The notes under the pieces are model-generated. The model was not told the DNA's origin. It did no database searches and saw only the letters and a list, made by a program, of their open reading frames with translations. From positions 1-64,000 of the forward strand of contig NZ_POXG01000006.1 in assembly GCF_003044565.1 (NCBI RefSeq): a stretch of DNA of 64,000 nucleotides. Direction: 5' to 3'. Below are positions 12,884 to 47,838 of this stretch, one piece after another. This stretch comes from Neisseria sicca (GTDB lineage: Bacteria; Pseudomonadota; Gammaproteobacteria; Burkholderiales; Neisseriaceae). Made by a program: the position numbers and the translations under genes. Position 1 is the stretch's first letter, and each line of letters begins with the position of its first letter.

Positions 12884-14080
12884 ATGACCCAAAAACTGAT
12901 CTTAGTTTTGAACTGCGGCAGCTCATCCCTCAAAGGTGCCGTACTGGATAACGAAAGCGGCGAAGTCCTGCTCAGCTGCCTTGCCGAAAAACTCAACCTG
13001 CCTGATGCTTACATCACGTTCAAAGTAAACGGCGAAAAACACAAAGTCGACCTGTCTGCCAAGCCCGACCACACCGGCGCAGTTGAAGCCCTGATGGAAG
13101 AACTCAAAGCCCACGGCCTCGACAGCCGCATCGGCGCCATCGGTCACCGCGTCGTCAGCGGCGGCGAGTTGTACAGCGAATCCATCCTTGTTGACGACGA
13201 AGTCATCGCAGGCATCGAAAAATGTATTCCGCTCGCTCCGCTGCACAACCCCGCACACCTCTTGGGTCTGCGTGCCGCACAAAGCATTTTCAAAGGTCTG
13301 CCTAACGTCGTCGTATTCGACACCGCCTTCCACCAAACCATGCCGGAACATGCCTACACCTACGCTATTCCGCATGAACTGTATGAAAAATACGGCTTGC
13401 GTCGCTACGGCGCGCACGGTACCAGCTACCGCTACGTTTCTGATGAAACTGCCCGTTTCCTCGGTAAAGACAAAAAAGACCTGCGCATGGTAATTGCCCA
13501 CTTGGGTAACGGCGCATCTATTACCGCCGTCGCCAACGGCGAATCACGCGATACCAGCATGGGCCTGACCCCGCTGGAAGGTTTGGTCATGGGTACCCGC
13601 AGCGGCGACATCGATCCCGCAGTGTTTAGCTTCTTGGCTGAAAATGCCAACATGACCATCGCCCAAATCACCGACATGCTGAACAAAAAATCAGGTCTGC
13701 TCGGTATCTCAGGTTTGTCCAACGACTGCCGTACCATCGAAGAAGAAGCTGCCAACGGCCACGCAGGTGCCAAACTGGCTCTGGAAATCTTCATCTACCG
13801 CCTCGCCAAATACATCGGCAGCATGGCTGTCGCAGCCGGCGGTCTTGACGCACTCGTCTTCACCGGCGGTATCGGCGAAAACTCCGACATCATCCGCGAG
13901 CGCGTACTCGGCTACTTGGGCTTCCTCGGTCTGAAAGCCGACCACGAAGCCAACCTGAAAGCCCGCTTCGGTAACGCAGGCGTGATTACGACTGCCGACA
14001 GCGCAGCCGTCGCCGTTGTGATTCCGACCAACGAAGAATTGATGATTGCACACGACACCGCCCGTCTGAGCGGCCTGTAA
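12884..14080 (+). CDS. ackA: Acetate kinase
   Basis: It interconverts acetate plus ATP with acetyl phosphate plus ADP. The 398-residue product opens with the ASKHA phosphate-1 motif LVLNCGSSSLKGAVL. It has VVFDTAFHQTMPEHAYTY, the adenosine-binding GNGASITAV, and the conserved RSGDIDP and FTGGIGENS blocks. AGGAGCCACAACAA precedes the ATG, giving a clear ribosome binding site. The phosphotransacetylase gene pta is not adjacent. A standard intrinsic terminator follows. Confidence 0.96.
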   Translation: MTQKLILVLNCGSSSLKGAVLDNESGEVLLSCLAEKLNLPDAYITFKVNGEKHKVDLSAKPDHTGAVEALMEELKAHGLDSRIGAIGHRVVSGGELYSESILVDDEVIAGIEKCIPLAPLHNPAHLLGLRAAQSIFKGLPNVVVFDTAFHQTMPEHAYTYAIPHELYEKYGLRRYGAHGTSYRYVSDETARFLGKDKKDLRMVIAHLGNGASITAVANGESRDTSMGLTPLEGLVMGTRSGDIDPAVFSFLAENANMTIAQITDMLNKKSGLLGISGLSNDCRTIEEEAANGHAGAKLALEIFIYRLAKYIGSMAVAAGGLDALVFTGGIGENSDIIRERVLGYLGFLGLKADHEANLKARFGNAGVITTADSAAVAVVIPTNEELMIAHDTARLSGL

Positions 14081-46112: not shown

Positions 46113-46940
46113 ATGGATACGAATCGTCCCGATACGCCGCAACAAACGGATGAAAGCCTGGATTGGGAAAGCCGCTTGGAAAAGCTGCGGCAAACCCGCC
46201 AATTGAACGCACCTTACACACACGCGCCTTTGGTGCGCGAATCTCAAGAGCCAGCCGTCGAGCAGAAGCCCAAAGCCAAGTCGGTCAAGCTCGACGATGC
46301 CAACCGCGATGCCGTGTTGACGGAATATCTGCGCAAATGGCAGGAGGAGCATAACGCCATGCTGGAGGAAGACGCTGCCGAAACGGCGGAGACCGATGCG
46401 ATGGTGATTTTGCAGGAGAACTGGCTGAACGCGCAGTCTTCGCTGCAAATGAGTGCGACAGACAGACAAATCGAGTCCACGCGTACGGTTTGGCTGAATC
46501 CGAAACGTAAAACGGTCGAATTTGATGCGCCTGTAAAAGACGCGCCTATAAAAGAAGAAGCAACGTCGTCTGAAAACGAAGGTCCTCAGGCACAAGAGCA
46601 GGTTTCAGACGACCTCAAGCAAGAAATGCCGCCGATTACCGTCAATATCAACGTGCTGAACCCGCAGGTTATCAACCGCAGGGAAGTGTTCTGCATTTCC
46701 GAGCAAGACCTGAGCGAGCGTTTAATCAGACGCCTGCGCCCGCACGTCGCCGACGCAGTCAACGGCATGATACGCACCGCCGTGCAGAAACAAATGGCGC
46801 TGTTTACCTACCAGCTCCAACAAACTCTCAGCGAGCAGGCGCCCGATTTGGTGGAACAGCTTTTGGATTACAACGTGAAAAAAATCCTGAACGACATCAA
46901 ATACGAAATGAAATACAGTCAGGGAAACAAAAAAGCGTGA
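46113..46940 (+). CDS. Hypothetical acidic protein
   Basis: A 275-residue protein with no signal peptide. The first 180 residues look disordered and rich in Glu, Asp, Gln and Pro. The last 100 are helical (REVFCISEQDLSERLIRRLRPHVADAVNGMIRTAVQKQMALF, then YNVKKILNDIKYEMKY). Two DUS copies in the gene encode SSENEG and VSDDLKQE in the low-complexity part. No family is recognised. A perfect 12-base palindrome overlaps its stop codon. Confidence 0.7.
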   Translation: MDTNRPDTPQQTDESLDWESRLEKLRQTRQLNAPYTHAPLVRESQEPAVEQKPKAKSVKLDDANRDAVLTEYLRKWQEEHNAMLEEDAAETAETDAMVILQENWLNAQSSLQMSATDRQIESTRTVWLNPKRKTVEFDAPVKDAPIKEEATSSENEGPQAQEQVSDDLKQEMPPITVNINVLNPQVINRREVFCISEQDLSERLIRRLRPHVADAVNGMIRTAVQKQMALFTYQLQQTLSEQAPDLVEQLLDYNVKKILNDIKYEMKYSQGNKKA

Positions 46941-46946: not shown

Positions 46947-46997
46947 CGCCGTTTCAGGTATCGGACTGAAAATGCTGATTTTTCCGCCGGTTTTGTA

Positions 46998-47003
46998 TAT
47001 AAT
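46998..47003 (+). promoter_or_regulatory. Consensus -10 box of a candidate small RNA
   Basis: TATAAT, with CTGATT (46975-46980) at 17 bases as a weak -35. A start of transcription near 47010 is predicted. Confidence 0.6.
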
Positions 47004-47009
47004 GGCGGC

Positions 47010-47075
47010 TCACGTTATCGTGATTTAACTCCTTTCAAATAATTTATGCCCGATACACTGTCGGGCATTTTTTTG
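47010..47075 (+). ncRNA. Candidate Hfq-type small RNA or leader RNA
   Basis: A consensus -10 box is followed by about 65 bases holding a small hairpin (CACG-TTAT-CGTG, 47011-47022), an unpaired AU-rich stretch with CTCCTTTC (47030-47036), and an intrinsic terminator (GCCCGATACACTGTCGGGC plus seven T). CU-rich single-stranded seeds before a U-tailed terminator are typical of sRNAs that block ribosome binding sites. It could instead be an attenuated leader of the next gene. No homology is claimed. Confidence 0.5.
47048..47075 (+). terminator. Intrinsic terminator before the DUF3465 gene
   Basis: GCCCGA and TCGGGC arms enclose TACACTG and are followed by ATTTTTTT. It ends only a few bases before the downstream start codon, so it must end an upstream transcript. 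Confidence 0.87.
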
Positions 47076-47087
47076 GGCATGGATTTT

Positions 47088-47657
47088 ATGAATAAAAACA
47101 AATGGATTTGGATACTGATTGTTGCCGCCGTGGTAATCGGTTATCAAAAAATGCAGCAGGGGCGGCAAGGTCAGGCAGCAGATGCCGTAGAAACCCAAAC
47201 GCAGCCGCAAGCCCAAGCGGAAAAACGCCCCCCATCCGAACCGCCTCAGCCTCAGCAGTCTCCATCCCAAAAGTCGCAACCCAACAAGCAGCCGAAGTCT
47301 GACCACCAAGCAGGGCAGGGCAGCGCGGAACAAATATTGCAGCAAGCCTTTGAAAACCAAGAGAGCGATATTCAAGTGAAAGGCGCAGGCACGGTTCTCA
47401 AAACGCTGCCCGACGACAACCAAGGCACGCGCCATCAGCGTTTTATCTTGAAACTGTCCAGCGGGCAAACGCTTTTAGTGGCGCACAACATCGACCTCGC
47501 CGACAAAATTAAAGGCTTGAAAAAAGGCGATAAAGTCGGCTTCTACGGCGAATACGAATGGTCGGAACAGGGTGGCGTCCTCCATTGGACGCACCACGAC
47601 CCCGCAGGCCGCCATACCGATGGCTGGCTGGAACACAATGGACGTGTTTATCAATAA
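47088..47657 (+). CDS. DUF3465 protein with a membrane anchor
   Basis: A 189-residue protein with one N-terminal membrane segment (WIWILIVAAVVIGY), a Gln/Pro-rich linker and a C-terminal domain. The C-terminal domain (DIQVKGAGTVLKTLPDDNQGTRHQRFILKLSSGQTLLVAHNIDLA, then GEYEWSEQGGVLHWTHHDPAGRHTDGWLEHNGRVY) matches DUF3465, an OB-fold-like family of unknown function often found near nucleases or exported by Gram-negatives. ATG 47079 is an alternative start. The preceding terminator implies either a promoter within it or partial readthrough. Confidence 0.78.
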   Translation: MNKNKWIWILIVAAVVIGYQKMQQGRQGQAADAVETQTQPQAQAEKRPPSEPPQPQQSPSQKSQPNKQPKSDHQAGQGSAEQILQQAFENQESDIQVKGAGTVLKTLPDDNQGTRHQRFILKLSSGQTLLVAHNIDLADKIKGLKKGDKVGFYGEYEWSEQGGVLHWTHHDPAGRHTDGWLEHNGRVYQ

Positions 47658-47713: not shown

Positions 47714-47838
47714 CATTCGCCGTCAAACTTGAAAGACGGCGCAAATAAGCGCAAAATGTTAACAAGTTGACCTATGAAGCGCGCAGCTTCCCTCCTTTCC
47801 CACATCAAACAAACCTGCTGAACAAGATTGGAAAACAA

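Follow-up and report, generated by a model that had tools for sequence, protein, structure and literature searches.

The closest described systems to the locus reported here are NmsRA and NmsRB, sibling small RNAs (sRNAs) of Neisseria that are the same RNAs as NgncR_162/163 and RcoF (Rfam RF02877). The meningococcal and gonococcal versions both work through blocking of the ribosome-binding site (RBS) (PMC5362039, PMC9973317). NmsRA represses TCA-cycle and propionate genes via UC-rich anti-Shine-Dalgarno (anti-SD) motifs, and its level is tenfold higher without relA; a GC-rich discriminator, the mark of promoters repressed by (p)ppGpp, is described for its promoter, and an AU-rich Hfq signature seems to be absent from NmsR (PMC5362039). 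NrrF is a further meningococcal sRNA acting on mRNAs (PMC5586341); at the site of the present element, Rfam gives no match to any known family. In E. coli, 5′ UTR-derived sRNAs arise from premature termination, with 3′ ends upstream of start codons that give rise to short regulatory RNAs (PMC7815308); RNA ends and regulation were measured for those RNAs, whereas our element is known from sequence alone.

The element lies in a 64-kb stretch of Neisseria DNA, the whole of which is called the window below, and is found at the same locus in 8 of 46 genomes of the genus. These genomes fall into two clades, clade A (G000, which is the window's genome, G010, G028, and G031) and clade B (G009, G012, G027, and G063). 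Our best reading, held with slightly less than even confidence, is that the element is an sRNA gene of ~65 nt with its own promoter and terminator, the product of which would pair in trans with mRNAs to block their RBSs. As such it is a credible but ordinary candidate that is restricted to part of the genus. The main rival is a leader or attenuator of the downstream gene.

Anatomy of the Candidate Unit

The unit sits on the forward strand in the gap between the stop of an upstream gene (46113-46940, forward strand; 275 aa, without a Pfam family) and the ATG at 47088 of a gene for a DUF3465 protein (PF11948; 47088-47657, forward strand). This ATG is the likeliest start, as judged from the N termini of relatives; the protein then begins MNKNKWIW..., and its N terminus resembles a membrane anchor. 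The −10 box, TATAAT (46998-47003), is present in 8/8 element-bearing genomes and is followed by a GC-rich discriminator, GGCGGCT (47004-47010), that leads to the predicted start. The predicted RNA of about 65 nt (47010-47075, both ends inferred from the sequence) opens with a 5′ hairpin with a 5-bp stem, UCACG-UUAU-CGUGA (TCACG-TTAT-CGTGA in DNA; 47010-47023), continues through a CU-rich motif, CUCCUUUC (CTCCTTTC in DNA; 47029-47036), and closes with an intrinsic terminator (47046-47074) composed of a 9–10-bp stem (47046-47068) and a T7 run (47068-47074). A sequence-only reading of this DNA had proposed that a TATAAT, about 65 bases, and a strong intrinsic terminator are packed between two genes, with the terminator ending within ~15 bases of the next start codon. 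Both statements are borne out, as the T-run ends 13 nt before the ATG at 47088.

The proposal that the unit encodes a short, self-terminated RNA gains from the position-specific conservation in two diverged clades described below and loses at the −35 region. The putative −35 element, CTGATT (46975-46980), has a 17-nt spacing and by eye matches the consensus at 3/6 positions, which is poor, and a scan for sigma-70 promoters did not include the TATAAT site among its calls. Of the features of an Hfq-type sRNA, the −10 box and the U7-tailed terminator are present and the −35 element is poor; the conserved unpaired seed is taken up below. A terminator by itself is not rare here, since a loose scan of 2.2 kb found three where 4.6 were expected. 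TATAAT occurs 17 times in the window, both strands counted. An exact TATAAT followed within 30–120 nt by a terminator of at least 7 pairs occurs once in the window, against a total of one occurrence in 60 dinucleotide shuffles (mean 0.017), with thresholds that were chosen post hoc, the element having already been seen.

An alternative DUF3465 start was considered at an ATG (47046) inside the terminator stem, which is in frame in both clades, and was set aside, as no SD sequence was seen before it. The DUF3465 frame is open upstream to this ATG (47046-47087) in both clades, despite a 3-nt difference in length.

Predicted Fold of the Candidate RNA

The 47011-47075 segment is predicted to fold into a hairpin, an unpaired linker, and a 10-bp terminator, at −18.3 kcal/mol (z = −5.6; 0/200 shuffles folded as well), and the G012 counterpart has a z of −4.0. 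Folding thus reproduces the proposed layout of a 5′ hairpin, an unpaired stretch with the seed, and a U7-tailed terminator hairpin. The seed motif is unpaired in this fold; with three extra downstream bases in the window model, its last bases become partly paired, and in the G012 model it is 0.70–0.97 unpaired.

The 5′ hairpin maintains 5/5 pairs across five distinct sequences, with one change from A-U to G-U (in G010), and the terminator stem has one compensatory pair change, at its loop end. A covariance analysis across the genus had been suggested as a check of the candidate, and it lent almost nothing: only five distinct sequences were at hand, in which one pair had a compensatory change and two others had changed on one side alone, and 115 of 500 shuffles reached the observed level of covariation.

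The inverted repeat that forms the 5′ hairpin, TCACG-N4-CGTGA, could instead act at the DNA level, as the operator of a DUF3465 repressor, an idea prompted by its perfect 5-bp arms directly after the discriminator in 7/8 genomes and one that we regard as very improbable. The palindrome marks no regulon (the element itself is the single copy in both G000 and G028, and G012 and G027 have 3 and 2 copies, respectively; the reversed pattern gives 1, 0, 2, and 1 in G000, G028, G012, and G027). In addition, the A-to-G change in G010 destroys the symmetry of the DNA while retaining a G-U pair in the RNA, and an operator leaves both the seed and the terminator unexplained.

Conservation between the Two Clades

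The two clades are well diverged at this locus: at fourfold sites of five flanking genes, G000 is identical to G012 at 222/418 positions (53%) and to G027 at 233/414. From the −10 box to the T7 run, G000 and G012 share 64/77 positions (83%), an excess with a binomial P of 3e-8 at a 53% background and 9e-6 at a 60% background. Identity is concentrated in the −10/discriminator (13/13), the hairpin (13/14), the UCCUUUC motif (7/7), and the arms of the terminator stem (9/9 and 8/9, 17/18 together), whereas two linkers (1/5 and 5/9) and the terminator loop (2/5) have diverged, the borders of these modules having been drawn after the alignment was viewed. The discriminator is the same in G000 and G012 and differs by one base in each of G010, G028, G027, and G063. 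Without promoter and terminator, the body retains 26/35 positions (P = 0.0085), which is suggestive but not strong. Such modular conservation across diverged clades supports a real RNA.

The alignment also refines the CU-rich anti-SD seed that had been proposed. The motif is there and is mostly unpaired, but the full CUCCUUUC is not conserved: its first C reads A in the second clade, and the seed core is therefore UCCUUUC (47030-47036, forward strand), which is conserved at 7/7 positions between the clades and is mostly unpaired in both models.

Position of the Unit Relative to DUF3465

The position of the unit is one that a leader would have. According to the leader explanation, the TATAAT is the DUF3465 promoter, most transcripts end at the terminator, and the short RNA is a by-product that acts in cis if at all; we consider this a real but distinctly less probable account. 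In 8/8 genomes, the unit directly precedes DUF3465 and is transcribed toward it, with the T-run ending 13 nt (clade A) or 9 nt (clade B) before the DUF3465 ATG, so that there is no space for a further promoter, and the terminator falls just ahead of the gene that it would regulate, as in an attenuator. The distance from TATAAT to this ATG is 90 nt in both clades, an equality that results from two 3-nt length differences that cancel. By eye, in at least 8 of 17 element-less regions no more than about 35 nt separate the upstream gene from the DUF3465 start, an operon-like spacing. The window model also pairs UCC of the seed with the GGA just before the DUF3465 ATG, but this pairing of the seed with its own RBS is absent from the models of G031, G010, G012, and G009. 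Neither is there an antiterminator common to the clades (none in A and one of about 1 kcal/mol in B, in one simple test on two sequences), and Rfam gave no riboswitch or leader match at the site.

The sequence-only reading had further held that the terminator cannot simply be that of the following gene. This is right as far as it goes, but it passes over both a leader with premature termination before DUF3465 and a terminator of the upstream gene. In the latter case, the terminator would belong to the upstream gene and merely lie beside an unrelated promoter, as punctuation with no functional short RNA. Gaps bearing on this were surveyed at DUF3465 loci from 26 genus genomes, 24 of which were parsed (7 with the element and 17 without; G016 and G015 were unparsed, and G063 lay outside the set). 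In three of the 17 parsed element-less relatives (G026, G017, and G018), the gap holds a terminator-like hairpin; G006 has by eye a longer-looped one, and in G017 the terminator is preceded at a distance of 65 nt by a TATAAT, which lies within the reading frame of the upstream gene. A terminator of the upstream gene leaves unexplained, however, the conservation of the hairpin (13/14) and of UCCUUUC, as well as the fact that in 8/8 genomes the promoter is aimed directly at a terminator, and we think it unlikely.

Distribution in Neisseria

A DNA search was positive in 7 of 60 relatives, the window's own genome counted, and a pattern search found the element in 8/46 genus genomes with 0–1 mismatch (14/46 if other 2-mismatch matches are included). 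A covariance model, R1, built from the eight element sequences gave E values of 1e-12 or better in eight of the 46 genus genomes, a next-best value of 0.01, and matches at E up to 1 in 18/46; with the stricter filters of Infernal, which lose weak matches, there was no confident match away from the locus in these 46 genomes. The best of the weak matches, in G069 (0.01), G015 (0.025), and G032 (0.034), were rejected, as each opens with something like the hairpin and closes with a similar terminator but lacks UCCUUUC. G032 has CUUUC in its place, and the hairpin part of the G015 and G032 matches reads as the end of a coding frame. The exact pattern has five matches in a collection of named genomes, which may omit records very close to the window, and Neisseria sp. 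HMSC077D05 is the only named Neisseria among them.

The locus in the window is adjoined by AGGTCGTCTGAA, which we read as AG-mucDUS dialect by comparison with the parent AT-DUS. At the locus in the second clade, a single copy of AGGCCGTCTGAA would correspond to AG-DUS, the dialect of species that include N. subflava and N. flavescens. The AG-mucDUS dialect distinguishes N. macacae, N. sicca, and N. mucosa ATCC 25996 (PMC3630211). The two element-bearing lineages are probably commensal.

Seed Complement and Target Searches

The complement of the seed core, GAAAGGA, is a common SD sequence of this genome, and the enrichment of GAAAGGA-N4-12-ATG (110 sites against 14 for a reversed control in G000, and 69 against 16 in G012) is therefore expected; for the same reason, the seed alone confers no specificity. 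Extended seed complements show no excess in G000 (30, the element itself among them, against 23 in the control) or in G012 (23, the element itself included, against 28), and these searches, one in each of the two genomes, yielded no conserved mRNA target. The sole site in G000 other than the element with 15/16 bases complementary to the seed region (C4:39417-39432; L146:997-1012) was rejected as a target, since the frame that follows it codes for just 28 aa, a 45-aa frame spans it, and no convincing frame begins at that point. A putative gene is found about 140 nt downstream of the site. A copy of CTCCTTTC at 47792, in the leader of metZ, was likewise discarded, as it is not conserved, G028 having a different, repeat-like sequence there.

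Comparison with NmsR and Proposed Mode of Action

A search of Rfam had been proposed for the candidate sRNA, and no known family matches at the site: at gathering thresholds, the whole 64-kb window gives a tRNA and nothing else. The two RF02877 matches in the window's genome are both on contig C3, whereas the window is on C6, and R1 does not match any of five NmsR-bearing loci from four genomes. The element is thus a new candidate rather than a copy of NmsR, and no description of it was found among the literature matches listed. NmsR and the predicted RNA are both short Neisseria RNAs with a UC-rich anti-SD motif that includes CUCCUUU and an intrinsic terminator; in the NmsR copy adjoining lrp in the window's genome, CTCCTTT stands where the second anti-SD motif of NmsRA falls by spacing. 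NmsR, however, is about 90 nt long with three stem-loops, occurs in 44/46 genus genomes, and in meningococci is encoded at lrp, whereas the predicted RNA of the element has about 65 nt and two hairpins, occurs in 8/46, and belongs to a different locus. The common CUCCUUU can be taken as a feature of the working mode and not of family membership.

If the element is an sRNA gene, a sigma-70-type promoter and terminator would have been gained or kept as a unit in two Neisseria lineages, and transcription would yield an RNA in which the 5′ hairpin and the U7-tailed terminator flank an exposed AU/CU-rich linker that carries UCCUUUC. The UCCUUUC could pair with the purine-rich RBSs (GAAAGGA) of several mRNAs and so block translation, as do NmsR and NgncR_162/163. 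An RNA chaperone, probably Hfq or ProQ, may take part; NmsR is no model for the use of Hfq by the element, as the AU-rich signature seems to be lacking there. Because the promoter shares a GC-rich discriminator with that described for NmsRA (PMC5362039), its shutdown by (p)ppGpp is a fair prediction. Low-level read-through past the terminator probably also feeds DUF3465 mRNA, given that DUF3465 starts so soon after the T-run with no promoter visible between.

Taken to its full extent, the sRNA reading would make the element a commensal-specific, stringent-response-controlled counterpart of NmsR, in which one promoter–terminator unit provides a 65-nt anti-SD sRNA, the targets of which overlap with the NmsR targets, and gates DUF3465 by read-through, an elaboration that we hold to be improbable. 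If it were true, the mucosa-type and the second lineage would own a third metabolic sRNA that is absent in other Neisseria. If the element is real, it offers a test for rewiring, in such Neisseria, of the metabolic sRNA network described in meningococci and gonococci, and it gives a regulatory handle on DUF3465, a Pfam family of unknown function.

Related RNA Features in the Window's Genome

The NmsR siblings of G000 (C3:6857-6947, forward strand, and C3:11700-11787, reverse strand) are oppositely oriented, with 4.8 kb between them. A tandem arrangement within about 0.5 kb is seen in many other genus genomes; the spacing in G028 and G031 is similar to that in G000, and it is about 100 kb in G010, indicating rearrangement between the copies. 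A glycine riboswitch aptamer (RF00504) is located at G000:C2:7056-7152 (L150:1057-1153, reverse strand), upstream of a gene for an Lrp/AsnC-type regulator on the opposite strand. Contig C2 of G000 also contains a second UUCCUUUC-plus-terminator unit (12910-12981; L109:1501-1572, and also in L108, L110, L113, and L102), possibly a sibling leader or sRNA. A gene read as metN (methionine transporter) follows after about 22 nt. The unit is a weak match to R1 (E of 0.49 in G000) and is near-identical in G026 and four genomes of clade A.
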